Shown: positions 13,821-37,607 of the stretch, one piece after another
How positions within the stretch are numbered: position 1 is the stretch's first letter
Layout: every line of letters starts with the position of its first letter
Notes under the pieces: generated by a model
Told to the model about the DNA's origin: nothing
Seen by the model: only the letters and a program-made list of their open reading frames with translations
Database searches by the model: none
DNA from: Chloroflexota bacterium
Lineage (GTDB): Bacteria; Chloroflexota; Dehalococcoidia; SZUA-161
Direction of reading: 5' to 3'
NCBI GenBank assembly: GCA_021787935.1
Contig: JAJYLC010000008.1
Span: 1 to 43,199 of the forward strand
DNA: 43,199 nt
Made by a program: the position numbers and the translations under genes

Positions 13821-14711
13821 ATGGCTGCGGAGATAATCTCGGGAACTGTAGTAGCAGAGCAGATCCGCGGTGAGCTCAAAGTGAAAGTACAAGAGCTCAA
13901 GAAAAAAGGCATAAACCCCGGCGTAGTCTTTGTGCGCGTGGGCGAGGACCCTGCCTCGATATCTTATGTCACAGGGAAGAGTAAGGCCGCCGAGGAGCTG
14001 GGCATCCTCTCCGAGACCATAGTGCTCCCCGAGGACACCCCGGAGCAGAAACTCCTTGACCTTGTCTATAAGCTGAACAAGGACCCCAAGTTCAATGGAG
14101 TCCTGGTGCAGCTTCCGCTGCCCAAGCACATAGATGCAGATAAAGTCCTCAACGCCATTGAACCGGAGAAGGACGTCGATGGTTTCCACCCTGTGAATGT
14201 GGGCAGGCTGCTGATCGGTGACCCATATTTCATGCCCTGCACACCGCACGGCGTACAGGAGCTCCTGGTTCGCAGCGGCAACAGCCCGGAAGGAAAGCAT
14301 GTAGTTATCTGCGGACGCAGCAATATAGTAGGTAAGCCCGTGATGGCTATTTTGATACAGAAACAGAAGGGCGCTAACGCTACAGTGACCATGGTGCATA
14401 CCGGCACAAAGGACATGCCCAAGTACACCAGGCAGGCGGATATTCTCATCGCCGCCATGGGCAAAGCAAAGGTAATAACGGCGGATATGGTCAAAGAAGG
14501 CGTGGTGGTGATAGATGTCGGGGTAAACAGGATTCCCGATGCCACCAAGAAGAGCGGGTTCAGGCTGGTGGGCGATACTGATTTCGAGGCCATTAAAGAG
14601 AAGGCGAAGGCTATCACGCCCGTCCCCGGCGGCGTGGGACCAATGACCATCACTATGCTCATGGTGAATACAGTCAGGGCTGCCGAGCAGCAGTCCGCCA
14701 AGAAAAAGTAA
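13821..14711 (+). CDS. folD: Bifunctional methylene-THF dehydrogenase / methenyl-THF cyclohydrolase FolD
   Basis: FolD interconverts 5,10-methylene-, methenyl- and 10-formyl-tetrahydrofolate with NAD(P). The 296-residue protein has the family length and its motifs: the catalytic Tyr/Lys region (VGEDPASISYVTGKSKAAEELGI split around residues 41-63), VQLPLPKHID (residues about 96-105), CTPHGV, the Rossmann GRSNIVGKP and the C-terminal PVPGGVGPMTITML. The ATG at 13821 has an AAAGGAGG ribosome-binding site. It lies 158 bp upstream of formate-THF ligase on the same strand. The two enzymes are consecutive steps in C1 metabolism, as in the methyl branch of the Wood-Ljungdahl pathway or purine/formyl-Met supply. 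Confidence 0.96.
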   Translation: MAAEIISGTVVAEQIRGELKVKVQELKKKGINPGVVFVRVGEDPASISYVTGKSKAAEELGILSETIVLPEDTPEQKLLDLVYKLNKDPKFNGVLVQLPLPKHIDADKVLNAIEPEKDVDGFHPVNVGRLLIGDPYFMPCTPHGVQELLVRSGNSPEGKHVVICGRSNIVGKPVMAILIQKQKGANATVTMVHTGTKDMPKYTRQADILIAAMGKAKVITADMVKEGVVVIDVGVNRIPDATKKSGFRLVGDTDFEAIKEKAKAITPVPGGVGPMTITMLMVNTVRAAEQQSAKKK

Positions 14712-14869: not shown

Positions 14870-16633
14870 ATGGCATACGATGCAGTAAAACTGAAGGACT
14901 GGCAGATTGCAGAAGAAGCCGAGAAGAACATGCCCAAGCCTGAAGAGTGGATAAGCAGGCTGGGGCTGAAAAAGGACGAGCTTATCCCCTTCGGGCGGAC
15001 TCCAAAACTCGACTTCCTCAAAATTATGGAGCGCCTAAAGAACAAAAAGGATGGCAAGTATATTGAGGTAACCGCTATCACCCCCACGCCTCTGGGCGAA
15101 GGCAAGAGCACAACCTCGTGCGGACTTATCGAAGGTCTGGGGAAACGGGGCAAAAATGTTGGCGGATGCCTGCGCCAGCCCTCGGGCGGCCCCACCATGA
15201 ATATCAAAGGAACCGCTGCCGGCGGCGGCAATGCGCTGCTCATCCCCATGACCGAGTTCTCCATGGGGCTGACCGGCGACATTAATGAGATTATGAATGC
15301 TCACAACCTGGCTATGGTTGCTTTGACCGCCAGGATGCAGCACGAGCGCAATTACACTGACGAACAGTTACAAAGGCTCACCAAGATGCGCCGCATGGAC
15401 ATAGACCCCACCAGGGTGGAGATGGGCTGGATTATGGACTTTTGCGCCCAGAGCCTGCGCAACATAATCATTGGCATGGGTGGCCGTATGGACGGCTTCC
15501 TGATGCAGTCGAAATTCGGCATAGCTGTGAGCTCCGAGCTAATGGCTATGCTCGCCATCGTCAGGGACCTGGCTGACCTGCGGCAGAGGATGGACCAGAT
15601 CACGTTAGCTTATGATAAAAAGGGCAATCCTGTTACCACCGGCGACCTCGAGGTGGGGGGTGCCATGACAGCCTGGATGCGCAACGCCATCAACCCCACC
15701 CTTTGCTGTACAGTGGAGTATCAGCCGTTGATGGTACATGCAGGACCTTTTGCTAACATTGCTGTAGGCCAATCCTCCATCATCGCCGACCGCATCGGCC
15801 TGAAGATGTTCGACTACCATGTAACCGAGAGCGGATTCGCCGCAGACATCGGCTTCGAAAAGTTCTGGAACGTAAAGTGCCGGTTCAGCGGCCTCAAACC
15901 CAATGTATCGGTGCTCACCAGCACCATCCGCGCCCTCAAGATGCACGGCGGAGGGCCCAAGGTGGTGGCAGGCCTGCCTCTGCCCGATTCCTACACCAAA
16001 GAGGACTTAAAGCTGCTGGAGAAGGGCCTCCCCAATATGATCCACCACATCAATACCATCAGAACAGCAGGAATCAACCCGGTGGTGTGCATCAATGCTT
16101 TCCATACAGATACCAAGGCGGAGATCGCCATGGTGAAAAAAGCGGCTGAGGCCGCCGGAGCTCGCTGCGCTCTGTCGGAGCACTGGGCCAAAGGCGGAGA
16201 AGGCGCGCTGGAGCTCGCTGATGCGGTTATGGAAGCCTGCGAACAGAAGAACGACTTCAAGTTCCTTTATCCCAACGAGATGAAGCTGAGGCAGCGTGTT
16301 GAGAAGATCGCTAAGACAGTTTACGGAGCCGATGGCGTGAACTGGAGCCCCGAGGCTACGGAAAAAGCCAAGATGTTCGAGGCAGACGCCAAGTACGATG
16401 AGTACGCTACCATGATGGTGAAGACCCACCTGAGCCTCACCCATGACCCGTCCATTAAGGGCGTTCCCAAGGGATGGACACTACCCATTCGCGACGTGCT
16501 CATCTATTCGGGTGCCAAGTTCCTTTGCCCCATGGCCGGGACCATCAGCCTGATGCCGGGCACCGCCTCCGACCCCGCCTTCAGAAGGGTAGATGTGGAC
16601 GTCAAGACCGGCAAGGTATCAGGATTGTTCTAA
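14870..16633 (+). CDS. fhs: Formate-tetrahydrofolate ligase
   Basis: The enzyme makes 10-formyl-THF from formate, ATP and THF. The 587-residue protein is slightly longer than the usual ~560. It carries the ATP-binding loop [14 protein letters not shown] (residues about 70-83), [19 protein letters not shown] and the family [10 protein letters not shown]-like region (here [17 protein letters not shown]). It also has [14 protein letters not shown] and the C-terminal [12 protein letters not shown]. The start at 14870 follows a GGAAGGTAGGAGG ribosome-binding region. It sits directly downstream of folD and so should supply formyl-THF for that enzyme. The N-terminal ~50 residues form a short extension typical of the clostridial/Chloroflexota type. 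Confidence 0.96.
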
Positions 16634-17487: not shown

Positions 17488-20001
17488 ATGGCGAAGATAA
17501 AGCTCACCATTGATAATAAAGAGGTCAAGGTCGAAAAAGGGAAAACAGTCCTTCTGGCTGCGCAAAGCGCAGGCATTTATATCCCTGCCCTCTGCGCTCA
17601 CCCCGATTTGCCGCCAGCGCCAGGACTGAAGGCTTCCAGTATCATATATCTGGGCGGTAGACCCTACCAGAGCTCAGGCCCCGGCCTGGAGTTTCAGGGG
17701 TGCAGGCTCTGTGTCGTGGAGGTAGAAGGGCTGAAGGACCTCCCCACCTCCTGCAACCTTCCCGCCGCTGAAGGCATGGCAGTGCACACCAACACGCCCC
17801 GGGTTCAAGGACTGCGGCGCGAGAACCTGAAAGCCATTCTGCTCAAGCATCCCCACGCCTGTCTCACCTGTAAACAGCGAGAGGGCTGCAGCCCCTTCGA
17901 GTCATGCCCTAACAGCATACCAGTCAAAGAGCGCTGCTGCTCCAAGCTGGGCTACTGCGAGCTCCAGGCAGTTGTAGAGTTCATCGGCCTCAAAGAGAGC
18001 ATCCCCCGCTATATCTTCAAAGACCTGCCTGTTAAGAAAGATGAGCCGCTGTTCACTCAAGATTATAACCTGTGTATCGGCTGCACCCGCTGCGTCAGGG
18101 TATGCCAGGATTTGCGCGGCATAGGCGCGCTGGGCTTCATCATTCGGGATGGTGAGGTCATCGCGGGACCCATCGCTAAAACGCTAAGGGAATCCGGGTG
18201 CAAGTTCTGTGGCGCCTGCGTCGAGGTGTGCCCCACGGGAGCACTGCTCGACCTGGACGTCAAGAGGGCAGAGCGCGAAACCGCCCTGGTGCCCTGCACT
18301 AACGCCTGCCCTGCCGGGATAGACGTGCCGCGCTACGTGCGCCTCACGGCTGAGGGCAAGTTCGCTGAAGCAGTGGCGGTAGTGCGAGAGAAAGTGCCTT
18401 TCCCCGCTGTGCTGGGCCGTGTCTGCTTCCATCCCTGCGAGGGCGTCTGCCGCCGCGGTCAACTGAACCAGCCCATCGCTATCTGCGCGCTCAAGCGATT
18501 CATCGCTGAGCAAGGTAATAATAAGGAATGGCAAACAAAGGCCAAGAAAGCCAGCCCGACAGGCAAAAGAGTGGCGGTCGTAGGCTCCGGGCCTGCGGGA
18601 CTGACCGCAGCATATTACCTGGCAAAGCTTGGCCATTCCGTAACCGTATTCGAAGCACTGCCTGAGCCAGGGGGCATGATGCGGGTGGGTATACCCAGGT
18701 ATCGCCTGCCCGGTGAAGTCCTAGACAGCGAAATCGAAGGGATAAAGAGCGTCGGGGTCGAGATAAAAACTAATAGCAGGGTGGAATCCCTTGATGGCCT
18801 CAAGCAGCAGGGCTTCAATGCCACCTTCCTGGCTATAGGGGCCCACCAGGGGATTAAGCTGGGAGTCCCGGGAGAGGACAGCCCGGGCGTTATCGAGTGC
18901 ATATCTTTCCTCAGAGATGTGAGCCAGGGTAAAAAGGTAAATCCCGGCAATAGGGTTGTGGTAGTAGGAGGAGGCAACGCCGCCATAGATGCGGCTCGCA
19001 CGGCGCGCCGCCTGGGAGCCAAAGAGGTAATTATCCTCTACCGCCGCTCCCGGCAGGAGATGCCGGCTAACTCCGAGGAGGTAGAGGCAGCGCTTGAAGA
19101 GGGCACCAAGATATTTTTCCTGGCTGCACCGACCAAGATAACAAAGGATGGCAACACGCTGGTGATGGAATGCCTGCGCATGGAGCTTGGCGAGCCCGAC
19201 GCCAGCGGCAGGAAGCGCCCGGTGCCTGTCAAGGGCAGCGAGTTCAATATTGCCTGCGATACCGTGGTAGCTGCCATCGGCCAAATGCCTGCTATTCCCT
19301 CCGGTTTTGAGATTGAGCCTCTGGCCAACGGGACTTTGAAAGTGAATTCCGAAACGCTAGCCACCGGCGTGGACGGTGTTTTCGCTGGCGGTGATGCCGC
19401 CACCGGCCCGGCCTCGGTCATCAAAGCGATCGCTGCAGGCAGGAAAGCGGCGATTTCAATAGACAAATACCTGGGAGGCAGCGGGGACATCAGTGAGGTC
19501 CTCACTGAACCTGCGAAAGCCAGCCCCTCTTTTGGCAGAGAGGAGGGCTTTGCCGACAGGCCTCGCATGAAGATACCTCGTCTTACTGTGGAACGCCGTA
19601 TCAGCGACTTCTCCGAGGTAGAAATGAGCTTCCTCAAACAGAGGGCTTGCGAGGAGGCGGCAAGGTGTCTGAGGTGCGACTTGAGGCTCGAGATCTCGCC
19701 GGTGATACTGCCGCCCAGCGAATGGTTGGAATTTAACTCGGCTAATGTAGACGCCGCTCCGGAAAAAGACGGGGTGTATCGCTTGTTTAACGAACAGAAA
19801 GAGGTCATCTATATCGGGAGCAATCCCAACATACGTAAAGGCCTGCAGGAAGTGCTTAACTCGGGAGACGACTGGGTCAAAAAAGCGAGGTACTTGCATT
19901 TTGAGGAAACCTTGATGTATACTATGCGGGAAAGCGAGCTGATCCAGCAATTCTTGCAGGAACACGGCAAGCTTCCAGAAGGTAACGAGGAGTTATTTTA
20001 G
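17488..20001 (+). CDS. Multidomain Fe-S/FAD oxidoreductase (NuoG/HydA-like plus GltD-like) with C-terminal GIY-YIG-like domain
   Basis: An 837-residue cytoplasmic electron-transfer flavoprotein. Residues 1-95 form a [2Fe-2S] ferredoxin domain (Cys36, 72, 75, 89). Next comes a NuoG-type His-Cys3 site (HPHACLTCKQREGC, 121-134) and then two [4Fe-4S] sites (CIGCTRCVRVC, 196-206; CKFCGACVEVCPTGAL, 238-253). Residues 270-340 are the Fe-S linker of GltD/dihydropyrimidine dehydrogenase. Residues 361-700 are GltD-like, with FAD loop GSGPAG (366-371), NAD(P)H loop VVVVGGGNAAID and GGDAATGPASVIKAI. Such proteins usually pass electrons between NAD(P)H and a partner such as formate dehydrogenase or hydrogenase; the partner is not encoded here. 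Residues 759-837 resemble a GIY-YIG nuclease domain: GVY (762-764), YIG (775-777), Arg783, a Glu in RESEL (815-817) and Asn833. That fusion is unusual. The start has AAAGGGG upstream. It is monocistronic before the 5S gene. Confidence 0.85.
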   Translation: MAKIKLTIDNKEVKVEKGKTVLLAAQSAGIYIPALCAHPDLPPAPGLKASSIIYLGGRPYQSSGPGLEFQGCRLCVVEVEGLKDLPTSCNLPAAEGMAVHTNTPRVQGLRRENLKAILLKHPHACLTCKQREGCSPFESCPNSIPVKERCCSKLGYCELQAVVEFIGLKESIPRYIFKDLPVKKDEPLFTQDYNLCIGCTRCVRVCQDLRGIGALGFIIRDGEVIAGPIAKTLRESGCKFCGACVEVCPTGALLDLDVKRAERETALVPCTNACPAGIDVPRYVRLTAEGKFAEAVAVVREKVPFPAVLGRVCFHPCEGVCRRGQLNQPIAICALKRFIAEQGNNKEWQTKAKKASPTGKRVAVVGSGPAGLTAAYYLAKLGHSVTVFEALPEPGGMMRVGIPRYRLPGEVLDSEIEGIKSVGVEIKTNSRVESLDGLKQQGFNATFLAIGAHQGIKLGVPGEDSPGVIECISFLRDVSQGKKVNPGNRVVVVGGGNAAIDAARTARRLGAKEVIILYRRSRQEMPANSEEVEAALEEGTKIFFLAAPTKITKDGNTLVMECLRMELGEPDASGRKRPVPVKGSEFNIACDTVVAAIGQMPAIPSGFEIEPLANGTLKVNSETLATGVDGVFAGGDAATGPASVIKAIAAGRKAAISIDKYLGGSGDISEVLTEPAKASPSFGREEGFADRPRMKIPRLTVERRISDFSEVEMSFLKQRACEEAARCLRCDLRLEISPVILPPSEWLEFNSANVDAAPEKDGVYRLFNEQKEVIYIGSNPNIRKGLQEVLNSGDDWVKKARYLHFEETLMYTMRESELIQQFLQEHGKLPEGNEELF

Positions 20002-20032: not shown

Positions 20033-20157
20033 GCTTCCTGGTGGTTAGAGCGGGGTGGCACCACCCGTTCCCATCCCGAACACGGAAGTGAAACGCCCCA
20101 GCGCAGACGATACTGAGGGGGCAACTCCTTGAGGAAAATATGCCACTGCTGGGAAGC
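20033..20157 (+). rRNA. rrf: 5S ribosomal RNA
   Basis: The sequence follows the bacterial 5S pattern: CCTGGTGG near the 5' end, then GGGGTGGCACCACCCGTTCC, CATCCCGAACACGGAAGTGA and AACGCCCCAGCG. The 3' strand is TGCCACTGCTGGGAAGC. The terminal arms GCTTCC and GGAAGC pair. Ends are placed by this helix and may be off by a few bases. No 16S or 23S gene is in the window, so it is an isolated copy. A strong terminator follows immediately. Confidence 0.93.
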
Positions 20158-20160
20158 ATT

Positions 20161-20208
20161 AAAGAGCCCAAATTTCAGAGGTATAGTAAATTTGGGCTCT
20201 TTTCTTTA
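20161..20208 (+). terminator. Rho-independent terminator after 5S rRNA
   Basis: AAAGAGCCCAAATTT (20161-20175) and AAATTTGGGCTCTTT (20188-20202) form a perfect 15-bp stem with a 12-base loop, followed by TTCTTT. This is a textbook intrinsic terminator. Confidence 0.92.
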
Positions 20209-20239
20209 CAGCTTCTTTGTGTTAAAATGGGCTCAAAGC

Positions 20240-20273
20240 CAGTACTAAAGTCTGGCTTAAGAATCAGTACTAA
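20240..20273 (+). promoter_or_regulatory. Direct repeat CAGTACTAA upstream of clpC
   Basis: CAGTACTAA occurs at 20240-20248 and again at 20265-20273, with AGTACTAAG also before the 5S gene at 20012-20020. The first copy lies inside a GCCAG...CTGGC hairpin (20238-20254). The pair sits 40-75 bases before the clpC start and does not match the known CtsR or CIRCE sites. It may be an operator, but this is speculative. Confidence 0.25.
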
Positions 20274-20313
20274 GGAAAAAATTAGGGCCACAGGAGCTCG
20301 ACGGAGTTGGGAA

Positions 20314-22800
<2,487 letters not shown>

Positions 22801-31612: not shown

Positions 31613-34180
31613 TTAAATTAGTCTGGCGCTGGCAAATACGAGAAGGTCAGAAAACTGTGTTGGCTGTAGTTTCTCGAACTCCTTTTGAGGCACTTTGATA
31701 TAATTCCAGGACGTGCCTGTGAGCAGAGTGGCGTTCTCACACCAGATTTGAGCCGCGCGGTCTTTATGAGCTACATCTACATCCTCACGGCCTTTGGTTT
31801 CCACTAAATAGTGGATTCCGTCGTGCAGGACGACCACGAAGTCGGGTTGGTAATATCGCAAGTTGCTAACAGCATCGGTATATTCTATGACGAAACCAAA
31901 CGGGTCCGGCAGCTTGGCAAAGGCTGCCACATCATTCGCACCTTCCAAGAATTTCGCAAATCTTTTCTCGAAGTCATTCTCGCACGGCACCAGATTAAAT
32001 ACCGTCTTCTTGGCATCCAGAGTAGGTCGAGAAAATGGGAATGGCATCGTCTCAGAGAGTTTGCGCCCTGCGTTCAAAAGCTGGGGTTGAAGCTCTTCCA
32101 CCACTAATGCCCGCAAGGCGTTCACAAATGTTTTCACAGTGACATATTGTGCTACATTGGTGCTGATAGCCTTTGTCATTGCCGGGTCTTCTATATTTAC
32201 ATTTCTACCAAAGGCTTTTATTTCCAGGAATTCCCGTACCTTGGGAGCCAGTGAAGCAAACTGCGACGGGAGCTTCACATCCTGAGCAATTCGCTTGGCG
32301 TAATATGATATGACCTCCTGCGCTGTCTGTGCTTCAGGGATGGTATAATCTCGCTCTACAATTTTCTGGAGTGTAATAATATCGTAGCCTTCATACTGAA
32401 AAGTCTGGGCTTCTTTATCGCCTTCTCTGCTAGGTAATGGTGGGCAGGTCATAGAGGCAATATCCAACCCGGCTATTTCCTCGGCTAATGTCTTTTTCCT
32501 CGCCAATATGGGGCTGAGCAATGGGAGAGTTATATCCTTATCCATCTTCTGTGGGTCTGGGGCGATAGTGACGATGATCAACTTGTCTACGCCCACCTTG
32601 AAAGTTTCTAGCTCCATATCCTCGTCTTTTTCGAGGTCCTCCACAAACTTAATGAATGCATTATTCCCGATTACATCTACTCGCTCTGTGTAATCCTTGG
32701 TCAAACCCCGGAACATCAACCGTAGTCCCCTGCCAATGGTCTGCTCTGGCAGGATGTTGGCTTTGGAGGTATAAGGTCGCAACCCAACCACTACTGTTAC
32801 ATTCTGCACGTCCCAACCTTCTCTCAGCATCAGTACGCTCACAATACAGTTAACAGGACTTTCCGCCTCGTCTACCTCCCTCACCACCTTTCTTGCCTTA
32901 TCCAGTTCTTTCTTAGATACCTCGCCTGTCTTATCTGTATGGATGATTTGAAGCTTATCACCGCCGAATTCCTCGGGGTATTTCACCCTCAAGTAATCGC
33001 CTACGTCATCAGCGTCATCGGTATCGTTCATCATGACAAAGAGTATAGGTTTCTTACCGAGTGGACTTAGCTGACCCCTATATTCCCGCCACCGCTCAAC
33101 GCCCGCTGATAGATAGGCTTTGTATCGAGTACTAGCGACATCTGATCTGCCTTCCTGTATTCCAGTAGCAATGCCCTTGATTGGGCGCTTGACGATGTTG
33201 TCTATAATGGCTTGCTTCAGAGGGTAATCATATATAACCCAGGTAAATAGTGCCCCTTTGCTATACCTGGGTGTGGCGGTAAAATCGAGTTGTGCCGCCA
33301 AGCCGTTGGGGATGGCGGAGTGCAACCGTCTGATGACCTTGTTCCATTCGCTATCTTCGTCGTGAGTATGGTGTGCTTCATCGTTAAGTATAAGGCACGG
33401 GCCCCCACGCTTGACTATGCGCTGGTCAAAGTCCCCAATCTCTAATTGACTTGCTTGGTGCTTTGGCCCCAGCACAGCCGTCAACTCCTCTGGCTCTTGC
33501 TCCGCTCCTTTGTCAGAACGCTCGTAGAACTGCTGGATATTGGTCAAATACAAAGCCCCCTGTGAACTGGCTCGCTCAGCTTCGCCTCGCATATAGCAGT
33601 CAAAATCCCAGAAGATCTTCATCTCTGGCGGTATCACGGGATCAGTTCGGAATATCCGACCACCACTGAAATCCGTTCTGAGCCTCTCAAAAACGATGAC
33701 ATTAGGGGCAATAATCATGAACGTTTTAGCGTAGCCTTCCTTGCCCTCAACCACAGCATTGAAATACTGCCAGGCGATGGCTAAGGACATCACCTTGGTC
33801 TTGCCACTGCCGGTCGCCATCTTGATGCAGTAGCGGGCAAAATCATCGTATTGAAGCAGGCGGAGCCCTGGCATGTCATGTGCATATTTCTCAAGCAACT
33901 CTTTGTGACGCCGTATTCTGGCTACCTCATACACATAGACCAATGTTTCCATCGCCTCTCGCTGTGAATCGTGATACCAGAACGGTCTCCCATTGGGCAA
34001 ACGATGGTCAGTTTTGAACCAGTAGTTCAGCAAGGCTTGTGTAGTATCGGTAACGCCTTTGTAATTGCTCTTGCGCCAGTCGGCGACCACTTTCCGTATT
34101 GCAGGCACACAAGGTGCAGTTTTACTGCGCACCTCCAGAAGGCCCAGTTGCTCTGAGGGGACCGCTTTGCGGCGTGGCAT
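31613..34180 (-). CDS. Type III restriction enzyme Res subunit
   Basis: The 855-residue helicase-nuclease subunit of a type III restriction-modification system. It translocates on DNA and cleaves when two unmethylated sites are oppositely oriented. It has superfamily 2 helicase motifs: Walker A ATGSGKT (122-128), DEAH box LNDEAHH (267-271), then the second RecA domain with ILFVMMNDTDDADDVGDYL, MLREGWDVQNV and EQTIGRGLRLMF. The C-terminal region (near residues 790-830) has a PD-(D/E)XK pattern: YQPDFVVVL...YLVETKG. Length is normal for the family. It starts one base after the methyltransferase stop, so the genes form an operon. No frameshift is seen, and the system looks intact. Confidence 0.93.
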   Translation of the reverse strand: MPRRKAVPSEQLGLLEVRSKTAPCVPAIRKVVADWRKSNYKGVTDTTQALLNYWFKTDHRLPNGRPFWYHDSQREAMETLVYVYEVARIRRHKELLEKYAHDMPGLRLLQYDDFARYCIKMATGSGKTKVMSLAIAWQYFNAVVEGKEGYAKTFMIIAPNVIVFERLRTDFSGGRIFRTDPVIPPEMKIFWDFDCYMRGEAERASSQGALYLTNIQQFYERSDKGAEQEPEELTAVLGPKHQASQLEIGDFDQRIVKRGGPCLILNDEAHHTHDEDSEWNKVIRRLHSAIPNGLAAQLDFTATPRYSKGALFTWVIYDYPLKQAIIDNIVKRPIKGIATGIQEGRSDVASTRYKAYLSAGVERWREYRGQLSPLGKKPILFVMMNDTDDADDVGDYLRVKYPEEFGGDKLQIIHTDKTGEVSKKELDKARKVVREVDEAESPVNCIVSVLMLREGWDVQNVTVVVGLRPYTSKANILPEQTIGRGLRLMFRGLTKDYTERVDVIGNNAFIKFVEDLEKDEDMELETFKVGVDKLIIVTIAPDPQKMDKDITLPLLSPILARKKTLAEEIAGLDIASMTCPPLPSREGDKEAQTFQYEGYDIITLQKIVERDYTIPEAQTAQEVISYYAKRIAQDVKLPSQFASLAPKVREFLEIKAFGRNVNIEDPAMTKAISTNVAQYVTVKTFVNALRALVVEELQPQLLNAGRKLSETMPFPFSRPTLDAKKTVFNLVPCENDFEKRFAKFLEGANDVAAFAKLPDPFGFVIEYTDAVSNLRYYQPDFVVVLHDGIHYLVETKGREDVDVAHKDRAAQIWCENATLLTGTSWNYIKVPQKEFEKLQPTQFSDLLVFASARLI

Positions 34181-34181
34181 T

Positions 34182-36155
34182 TCAACGCACCTCTACATTT
34201 AGTGTCTTGGTAGTATCGTTGCCAAGGATGTCGATCACCTTCACCACGATAACGTAAGTTCCTGCTTGGTCGTAAGTGTGGCTTACCGATTTTTGTAACT
34301 GTCGCTTCTGGCGAGTACGGTAGTCCTGCCACTCGTTGTGAAAGGTGTCACCGTGGTTATTCCAGTCTACTGCCCAGTAGTCAATCCATTGCTCCCAGTG
34401 AGTTATGGTATGACGCACTTCTTCAGGCACGTCGTCGGGTGGGATAACAAAATCGGTCAGCATCACTGTTGCGGCTCGTCCCTTCTTTGCCAAGTCAACA
34501 GATAATGCCGCTAACTCAAAGAAGTGTATATCTGCCTGCTCTACAGCCTTTTTCTCAAGTACCTCTCTCGGGATGCGGAGAAAGCGCATATTGATATTTG
34601 CCTGTGCAGCCTGCTGCTTGGCTACTTCGTTCAACTCAAAGGCAAAATCCCAGCCTAACACATCGACACCGTTAGTCTTTGGGGCATCCTTGCCCGTGCC
34701 CACTGCCTTCCTGAACTCTGTTGCTATTTGCGCTACGTCAGCGGTACTCACGGGAGAATCCACCGCTCCCACATGTACCATCCGCCCGCCCTTGACGCCA
34801 TGTAACCAAGTATATCCCGTGATTGTTTTTGCGTGATATAGCTCCAAGATAAAACGGCGATAGGCTAATGTTCTTTGTTCTGCCTGCTCTCCAAACTCAG
34901 CCGTCTGCCACAACTGGCGCTCGTACTTGCCCAGGTTTTGGACAATAAAAGGTCTTATGTCTGGAACGGAGAGAAGACGCTTGCGAGTCGTATGGATAGC
35001 GAAGCGACTCAAATCGCAGCCTATCCAGCGACGGCGAAGTCTTTCTGCTACAACCGCAGTGGTACCGCTGCCTACAAAACTGTCCAAGATGAGGTCATTT
35101 TCATTGGATGAGGCCCGAATGATGCGATCTAATAGTGCTTCAGATTTCTGTGTCGGATAGTCTACAGACTCAGATGTCCAAGTAAGAACTGGTTGAGTTT
35201 CCTTGTCCCACCAAACATCGGATGCAGGTACCCCAGGCATCTCATCCAGGTATTGTTTTAGCCTTGGGATTCCTTTCTTTGTCCAGTATATTTTACCTTG
35301 TTTATCAAGATCCTCAAGCTTCTCTCTAGTATATGCCCAGTGTCTGCCTCTTGGAGGCAGGATGTCTCTCCACATGAACTGCCCACCTGACGAACCAGCT
35401 CCAGTGAGACTGGCAGACAACCATTTCCTACCATCAGGATCGGAATACCGATAGTATTTTTCAATATAATCGGTATCATAAGGCAGATACACCCCATTAA
35501 AGATCCAATTAGAGCCTTTGGAATACCAAAAAAGGCTCTGATGAATCGAACCAAACTGATTTGCGTCTGCATGAGCAAATGTGCTTCTTACAACGATGTG
35601 ATTACGGAAGTTGTCCTTACCAAAGACCTCATCCAGAACAAGTTTAGCGTAATGGCCTAAGTTTTCATCGAGATGTACATAGATGCTCCCACTGTCAGCA
35701 AGCAATTCCCCTAGGAGTACCACTGTCTCGTAAAACCATTGAAGATACTTGTCGATGTGAGTTTTTCCCGCAGCACGCTCCTCGGGACTTACCCCCCAAG
35801 TATCTCTGTAAGCCTTCTGTTCAATGATGCTAGGCTCTTTCTTGAAGTCCTCGCCATTAACATGCACTTGAAAAGAGAAGTCTTGCCCAGTATCAAAAGG
35901 TGGATCGATATAAATAAGATTGATCTTTCCCGCAAACTCCTCAAGCAATGCGGGCAGCACATATTTCTTATCACCCCAGATAAGGCGGTTGCGCCACTCA
36001 GAGGCCTTGCCAGAAGACCACGCCTCCAAAGACATTTGCCTCTCTTTGGCCGATTCATTTATGGTTTCAACCGTTTGAAAAGGCAGCGCCACCCGCAAAG
36101 GTGCAACCTTTCTCCCATCCTTATCGTATTTGCCCTCCCAGATCAATTCGGTCAT
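34182..36155 (-). CDS. Type III DNA methyltransferase Mod subunit
   Basis: The beta-class N6-adenine methyltransferase that sets target specificity of the type III system. It has motif IV DPPF (residues 84-87, LIYIDPPFDTGQDF) ahead of motif I DSFVGSGTTAVVAERL (about residues 345-360), the order expected for beta-class enzymes, with the target-recognition region between. The ATG at 36155 (657 residues) has an AGAGG ribosome-binding site; a GTG at 36170 would add five residues. The last ~35 residues (HTYDQAGTYVIVVKVIDILGNDTTKTL) resemble a PKD-like beta strand set, an odd tail for a methyltransferase. The gene is first in the mod-res operon. Flanking repeats and the toxin-antitoxin pair suggest a mobile defence insert. 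Confidence 0.93.
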   Translation of the reverse strand: MTELIWEGKYDKDGRKVAPLRVALPFQTVETINESAKERQMSLEAWSSGKASEWRNRLIWGDKKYVLPALLEEFAGKINLIYIDPPFDTGQDFSFQVHVNGEDFKKEPSIIEQKAYRDTWGVSPEERAAGKTHIDKYLQWFYETVVLLGELLADSGSIYVHLDENLGHYAKLVLDEVFGKDNFRNHIVVRSTFAHADANQFGSIHQSLFWYSKGSNWIFNGVYLPYDTDYIEKYYRYSDPDGRKWLSASLTGAGSSGGQFMWRDILPPRGRHWAYTREKLEDLDKQGKIYWTKKGIPRLKQYLDEMPGVPASDVWWDKETQPVLTWTSESVDYPTQKSEALLDRIIRASSNENDLILDSFVGSGTTAVVAERLRRRWIGCDLSRFAIHTTRKRLLSVPDIRPFIVQNLGKYERQLWQTAEFGEQAEQRTLAYRRFILELYHAKTITGYTWLHGVKGGRMVHVGAVDSPVSTADVAQIATEFRKAVGTGKDAPKTNGVDVLGWDFAFELNEVAKQQAAQANINMRFLRIPREVLEKKAVEQADIHFFELAALSVDLAKKGRAATVMLTDFVIPPDDVPEEVRHTITHWEQWIDYWAVDWNNHGDTFHNEWQDYRTRQKRQLQKSVSHTYDQAGTYVIVVKVIDILGNDTTKTLNVEVR

Positions 36156-36389
36156 TTCAAACCTCTGCACCTATCATAATTCTGCACGTCCAAAAATTGC
36201 TCGGACGGAGGGCGCATAGTCATGCACCCCTACAATTCACTCGCAGGCGAAAAGCCTTGCCATATTCTACACTGCATGGTTGCCAAATGGAAGTCTTTGT
36301 GGAACTTATTTAATAACACCAGATAGTGTTTGTCATGACCCCTATTGAATTTTTAAGAGCACGCGCGAGTTTCAAACCCACTGTACAAC

Positions 36390-36776: not shown

Positions 36777-37607
36777 ATGTCTATTTTGCGAAACAGGGGG
36801 ATTTCAACTCTTTTGCCTGTCATTTGCCTCTTGCTGGCAGTTGCAGCCGGTTGTTCTTCCTCCTCCGGTTCAACACCATACGCTGAGAATCCGGTTGCCG
36901 GCAGGGAAACGCTGGCTCAGGTGTCCACTATCAATGCACTCATGGCCGGGGTCTATGACAGCGCGATTTCCTGCGGTCAACTCAAGGGCTACGGCAATTT
37001 CGGCATCGGCACTTTTGAAGCCCTGGATGGGGAGATGGTGATGCTGAACGGGCAGATTTACCAGGTGAAGTCTGATGGCGTGGCTTATCCGGCACCTGAT
37101 TCTCTCGGAGTACCGTTTGCCGCTGTGACTTTCTTCGATAGCGACTTTGAGGAGCCAATAGCCTCAGGCACTACCTACTCTGTATTTCAGACGCTTATCG
37201 GCCAGATTAGTCCTTCCAAAAATATTTTCGTTGCCATAGAGATCGAGGGTAATTTCAGCTATGTCGAGACCCGGAGTGTCCCCAGGCAGGAGAAGCCTTA
37301 TCCACCCTTAGCTGAGGTGACTCAGAAGCAGTCTGTCTTCCAGTTTAACAATGTTTCCGGGACTATTGTCGGTTTCTGGTGTCCCCAGTATGTAAGCGGG
37401 GTCAATGTCCCCGGCTATCACCTCCATTTCCTGACCGCTGACCGGAAAGCCGGCGGGCATGTGCTCGATTTTACGGTCAATCAGGCTGTCATTTCTGTTG
37501 ACTACACCCCGGAGTTTCTCATGATTTTACCCGGTATGCAGAGCGATTTTTATAAGATAGACCTCAGCGGTGGTAACCAGAGCGACATTGAAAAGGTAGA
37601 GAAGTAA
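36777..37607 (+). CDS. budA: Exported lipoprotein form of alpha-acetolactate decarboxylase
   Basis: Acetolactate decarboxylase converts 2-acetolactate to acetoin. The 276-residue protein carries the family motifs: ISCGQLKGYGNFGIGTFEALDGEMVMLNGQ (split over residues about 62-91), YQVKSDG, and the zinc-binding cluster GYHLHFLTADRKAGGH with three His ligands. Unusually it begins with a signal peptide and lipobox (LLLAVAAGC, Cys26), so the mature enzyme (about 250 residues) should sit on the outer face of the membrane. A few exported ALDC proteins are known, but the lipoprotein form is worth noting. The ATG at 36777 has an AGGAG ribosome-binding site. It is monocistronic and has no acetolactate synthase gene nearby. 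The gene symbol follows from family membership only. Confidence 0.88.
   Translation: MSILRNRGISTLLPVICLLLAVAAGCSSSSGSTPYAENPVAGRETLAQVSTINALMAGVYDSAISCGQLKGYGNFGIGTFEALDGEMVMLNGQIYQVKSDGVAYPAPDSLGVPFAAVTFFDSDFEEPIASGTTYSVFQTLIGQISPSKNIFVAIEIEGNFSYVETRSVPRQEKPYPPLAEVTQKQSVFQFNNVSGTIVGFWCPQYVSGVNVPGYHLHFLTADRKAGGHVLDFTVNQAVISVDYTPEFLMILPGMQSDFYKIDLSGGNQSDIEKVEK

Follow-up and report, generated by a model that had tools for sequence, protein, structure and literature searches.

The locus examined here raises the question of why an Fe-S flavoprotein should end in a domain that resembles a nuclease. The window, i.e., the whole stretch of DNA that was analyzed (43,199 nt of a Chloroflexota bacterium; assembly GCA_021787935.1, contig JAJYLC010000008.1), contains a gene for an 837-residue protein, P0001 (positions 17488..20001, forward strand), and an initial annotation had described its product as a complete Fe-S/FAD electron-transfer enzyme fused to a GIY-YIG-like domain. 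Both the open reading frame and its translation stand as described, and a GIY-YIG-fold domain on an intact Fe-S/FAD enzyme is what profile scores, an AlphaFold2 model, and Foldseek searches recover. Among the three roles originally offered for the domain (redox-gated nuclease, DNA- or RNA-docking module, or structural domain reused for contacts), it is the last that best fits the available evidence.

Judging from its sequence, P0001 combines NuoG-like and GltD-like parts in one NADPH/Fe-S flavoprotein that resembles StnC-type subunits. Residues 1 to 255 (17488..18252, forward strand) comprise NuoG/HydA-like N-terminal [2Fe-2S] and [4Fe-4S] domains with matches to Fer2_4, NADH-G_4Fe-4S_3, and Fer4_Nqo3 and to HydA/NuoG chains in the PDB, and their cysteines are conserved. 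Residues 265 to 735 (18280..19692, forward strand) comprise a GltD/NfnB-like 4Fe-4S, FAD, and NADPH domain (Fer4_20 and Pyr_redox_2; StnC, NfnA, and NfnL-type chains in the PDB) in which the Fe-S ligands of the StnC/NfnB-like NADPH subunit are present. The best PDB sequence matches of the redox part are the NADPH subunits of Nfn/Stn-type enzymes. Together with the Pfam, NCBIfam, and PDB matches, the retention of 26 of 31 cysteines in every fused protein covering those positions upholds the view that the redox part is complete and not a remnant. As a separate observation, C36 and C72 of the [2Fe-2S] motif (window positions 17596-17700) have 35 residues between them, as opposed to ~10 in some unfused relatives (L027 and L031), and this loop is confined to part of P0001's family.

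A linker at residues 731 to 744 (19678..19719, forward strand), modeled with low confidence at 731 to 739 of the full-length structure, leads into the C-terminal domain (residues 745 to 837, ~93 residues; 19720..19998, forward strand); unfused relatives stop at about the linker, with an LPP tail. With the full protein as query, Pfam model DUF7508 (PF24348, GIY-YIG-like) matches residues 745 to 811 at 27.8 bits (cut-off, 26), although the score falls to 20.8 bits with a tighter domain cut and many UvrC-length frames also exceed the cut-off, such that the model is nondiscriminating. PF24348, whose search matched mostly UvrC-length frames, was not used as a distribution marker. With the domain alone as query, PF01541 (GIY-YIG) scores 18.8 bits, which is under its gathering cut-off of 22.6. 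The AlphaFold2 model of the domain, built from a 20-sequence alignment (pLDDT, 88.1; pTM, 0.78), has the order strand-strand-helix-strand-helix, and the same elements appear in the full-length model (mean pLDDT, 80.4; pTM, 0.65). Searched against the PDB with Foldseek, this model returns ten matches at an E value of ≤0.001, each with a probability of 1.00 and a query TM score of 0.58 to 0.64, and every one of them is either a UvrC GIY-YIG domain or the N-terminal domain of plant GrxS16. Because the model is confident and all ten matches are GIY-YIG structures, the predicted GIY-YIG fold is well supported, and the objection that structure prediction might yield no such fold falls away.

Possession of the fold does not extend to possession of the nuclease site. 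The published GIY-YIG mechanism relies on two Tyr, an Arg, and a Glu (PMC9071465), and we compared the corresponding columns of ten fused domains with those of 30 UvrC frames from Chloroflexota genomes. At the columns of Tyr764, Tyr775, Ser778, Gly785, and Asn833, the UvrC controls have Y, Y, K, R, and N, respectively, each in 30/30, and the fused domains have Y/F, Y/F/L, S/G, G/S/D, and N. All of the residues named in the initial annotation (GVY, YIG, Arg783, Glu815/817, and Asn833) are at their assigned positions, and the motifs are present; what does not hold is the claim that the Arg follows the order and spacing of UvrC. The catalytic Arg of UvrC lies 8 residues past the Gly of YIG, where P0001 has Gly785; hence, Arg783 in the RKG segment (783 to 785; 19834..19842, forward strand) is two residues out of register and occupies a distinct helix column that is Arg or Lys in 29/30 UvrC sequences. 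None of the ten fused members has Arg at column 785.

The two tyrosines fare little better: P0001 itself has both, but Tyr764 of the GVY half-motif (762 to 764; 19771..19779, forward strand) is replaced by Phe in fused relatives and by Val in standalone ones, and Tyr775 of the YIG half-motif (775 to 777; 19810..19818, forward strand) is replaced by Phe or Leu in relatives. Tyr764 and its Phe alternative are spread over the tree of redox parts in a manner that, in our reading, would require several separate exchanges. What is strictly kept is a block, MYTxRESELIQQ...P..N, which makes up one helix plus the following segment. The helix, MYTMRESELIQQ (810 to 821; 19915..19950, forward strand), contains Arg814, Glu815, and Glu817 in 12/12 fused or near-standalone members, and the segment PEGN (830 to 833; 19975..19986, forward strand) contributes Pro830 and Asn833, likewise invariant among those members; Asn833 corresponds to the C-terminal Asn of GIY-YIG nucleases, and the spacing from the invariant Glu817, the candidate metal-binding Glu, to the Pro is one residue shorter in P0001 than in UvrC. 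The canonical nuclease site is thus dismantled, with the catalytic Arg and Lys gone and both Tyr drifting, and the column comparison with the 30 UvrC sequences rules out a canonical GIY-YIG nuclease.

Eight genomes of f1, the family to which the window belongs, carry the fusion, seven of them with full-length copies and one (G063) with its front cut by a contig end, as do two further families of Dehalococcoidia (G018 of f21 and G026 of f29, the latter with a contig-edge copy that comprises just the domain and the final stretch of the redox part). Although the window's own genome is split over 169 contigs, the same fusion with the same neighbors occurs in independent genomes, in one case on a single contig of 2,135,487 bases, which rules out a chimeric assembly and leaves an assembly or misbinning artifact with a practically negligible probability; the suspicion that the domain might be missing from close homologues is thereby dispelled. 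In the redox-part tree, the fused rows form one clade (support, 100/100) that is separate from 20 unfused relatives (the fused rows include G193, where a contig end cuts the gene off ahead of the domain). Since the unfused relatives terminate directly past the conserved LPP tail, the domain looks cleanly appended, and the fusion is apparently of single origin. Distribution beyond Chloroflexota was probed by exact peptide patterns only. Among open-access papers, we found no relevant report of this NuoG/GltD and GIY-YIG fusion, nor of GIY-YIG in connection with Dehalococcoidia, and passages of a 2006 superfamily survey (PMC1564403) mention no NuoG/GltD fusion.

Once acquired, the domain has been kept under purifying selection about as strong as that on the rest of the protein. 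Pairwise NG86 dN/dS values for the GIY-YIG domain range from 0.03 to 0.16 (0.034 to 0.156 where computable), similar to those of the NuoG-like part and mostly under those of the GltD-like part, although these ratios are rough because many dS values are >1 or saturated. Mean within-family identity is 0.778 for the domain and 0.775 and 0.689 for the redox parts.

Forms outside the fusion are also found. In family f49, the domain stands alone in two genomes (G059, L068 15051-15392; G106, L069 3993-4286), and in these near-standalone forms GVV and FIG replace GVY and YIG, and position 785 is Leu. The G059 copy is near clpB, with a gene between them that, on our reading of its sequence, is probably S1-repeat-like. 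Family f49 may show either the arrangement that preceded the fusion or one left by loss of the redox part. In G244, a member of the window's own family, the redox gene is absent from the locus, and a frameshifted remnant of the domain's 3′ end precedes clpB. An fdhA-like molybdopterin oxidoreductase gene (L077, 2-2210) occupies the place of the redox gene in this genome and ends nearby.

The surroundings of the fused gene are metabolic. Its conserved neighbors in the window, all on the forward strand, are folD (methylene-THF dehydrogenase/cyclohydrolase; 13821..14711) and fhs (formate-THF ligase; 14870..16633) upstream and clpB (20140..22800) downstream. The fhs gene is upstream in the window, in G175, G094, G079, G164, and G197, and in G193, with folD preceding it in the first four of these loci and with only ~40 bases separating fhs from the fusion gene in G079; G208 has no fhs within the 554 bases present upstream. 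All f1 fusion loci that reach far enough have clpB downstream. No StnA/StnB (nuoE/nuoF-like) genes adjoin the window gene, and at other fused loci these positions are taken by fhs and clpB; NuoF homologues occur elsewhere in genomes with fused loci, and two of the unfused relatives adjoin NuoF-like genes, one of them NuoE as well. The folD-fhs neighborhood, along with the CdhD and MTHFR family members encoded in the same genome, suggests a link to C1/Wood-Ljungdahl metabolism. An MTHFR-family gene also sits close to a paralogue of the GltD-like module (G000:C131, 12761-17206). In G018 (L071, 3850-10840), a gene set of the benzoyl-CoA-reductase/2-hydroxyglutaryl-CoA-dehydratase type, with two HGD-D and two BcrAD/BadFG genes, is found upstream of the fusion gene, and this locus is consistent with the fusion protein being a more general electron donor. 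Elsewhere, the window contains two minus-strand genes that resemble a Type III restriction-modification pair (31613-36170; a ResIII/endonuclease protein and an N6/N4 DNA methylase) and an alpha-acetolactate decarboxylase-family gene (36777-37607).

Beyond what was computed (the fold, the fusion, its single origin, selection, and the loss of canonical catalytic residues), we infer a docking role, an electron acceptor, and, from gene neighborhood, a C1 link. Our preferred reading, which we consider probable, is that a retired GIY-YIG fold has been reused as a docking or assembly module on an NADPH oxidoreductase. A NuoG/GltD-type NADPH-oxidizing Fe-S flavoprotein (StnC-like) would have gained a DUF7508/GrxS16-N-type C-terminal domain once; the canonical nuclease site has been lost, with the fold and the Glu/Asn helix retained under purifying selection. 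The domain may hold the oxidoreductase in place beside a partner or aid its oligomerization, much as StnC appears to use its inactive FdhF-like domain, and electrons would pass from NADPH via FAD, the GltD clusters, and the NuoG-like clusters to an acceptor in folate/C1 metabolism. This role is favored by analogy, since StnC carries an inactive FdhF-like domain that is needed for assembly. Two observations sit uneasily with docking: Glu817, Asn833, and Arg814 lie on the active-site side of the fold and do not vary, an invariance that a purely structural use would not need, and the domain may be able to work independently of the redox part, since it stands alone in family f49.

The same three invariant residues could instead point to a redox-gated nuclease with an unusual site, in which Arg814 or Arg783 would serve for the lost Arg and Glu817/Asn833 would hold the metal; for R.Hpy188I and related enzymes, it has been proposed that the Arg has migrated and the YIG Tyr has been replaced (PMC2630997). 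We nevertheless regard such a nuclease as very unlikely, and its more specific form, in which activity at a rearranged Arg814/Glu817/Asn833 site depends on the redox state of the NADPH/Fe-S enzyme to which it is fused, as less likely again: close relatives vary at Tyr764 and Tyr775, no member has the Lys of UvrC at 778 or its Arg at 785, and the domain offers no Cys for a thiol switch. Nor is Arg814 a specific compensation, because a wider standalone group has it too, and one protein of that group still carries Arg at column 785. A domain that binds DNA or RNA but does not cut it, anchoring the redox enzyme to nucleic acid, would suit a conserved domain with a nucleic-acid-processing fold, but the Arg and Lys that UvrC conserves are gone and the gene neighborhood is metabolic, making this unlikely, if less so than catalysis. 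That the domain is a functionless C-terminal passenger might be argued from G244, which holds only the broken remnant beside its fdhA-like gene; with dN/dS far under 1 and the domain as conserved as the redox parts, this is highly improbable. The docking or assembly module thus remains our preferred reading, and what is left of the original interest is that a central redox enzyme bears a conserved nuclease fold retired from catalysis. If the domain does dock partners, it could reveal how these uncultured bacteria supply folate-dependent C1 metabolism with electrons. The case counsels caution against annotating such proteins as nucleases.

Among known systems, the redox part is closest to StnC/Nfn-type NADPH subunits (PDB 8oh5, 9bov, and 9n5u), with which P0001 shares the GltD-like FAD/NADPH domain and NuoG-like clusters. 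It differs from them in domain order, the NuoG-like part coming wholly first; from StnC in bearing a C-terminal appendage that is GIY-YIG-fold and not FdhF-like; and from Stn-type loci in that no adjacent nuoE/nuoF was found at fused loci. StnC is itself a NuoG/GltD-type subunit with a catalytically inactive FdhF-like domain, in which altered cluster ligands blocked tetramer formation (PMC10482914).

For the appended domain, the UvrC N-terminal GIY-YIG nuclease (PDB 1yd6 and 1ycz) provides the top Foldseek matches and has the same fold, and its Gly-Val, Pro, and Asn are retained here; unlike UvrC, the P0001 family is without the catalytic Arg and Lys, and its Tyr pair is variable. Closer to home, DUF7508/standalone GIY-YIG-like proteins of Dehalococcoidia have Arg814 and the Pro/Asn end in common with the fused domain, several of them with its YxxRxxEL...P..N block, but they keep the GVY Tyr in 8/8, mostly have a longer loop past YIG, and are unfused. 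The N-terminal GIY-YIG domain of plant GrxS16 (PDB 2lwf) ranks first among PDB sequences matched by the domain profile (E value, 0.0043) and similarly places a GIY-YIG fold on a redox/Fe-S-linked protein; in that alignment, it likewise lacks the first-helix Arg, and the two share a GKxPxGN tail, although the sequence similarity is weak and the GrxS16 domain is N-terminal to a monothiol glutaredoxin, unlike the C-terminal domain here. GrxS16 is subject to disulfide regulation, and a thiol switch of this kind is ruled out inside the P0001 domain because there is no Cys past residue 730. GIY-YIG domains have been described in plants and algae fused to glutaredoxin (GrxS16) and to Nfu proteins, the latter in algae, moss, and spruce (PMC3721309); the Nfu fusions also join GIY-YIG to an Fe-S-related protein, but the partner is an Nfu scaffold, the GIY-YIG domain is N-terminal, and the proteins are eukaryotic. 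The stable, apparently single-origin fusion of GIY-YIG with an NADPH/Fe-S oxidoreductase in Chloroflexota sets a bacterial case beside the GrxS16 and NFU fusions of plants.
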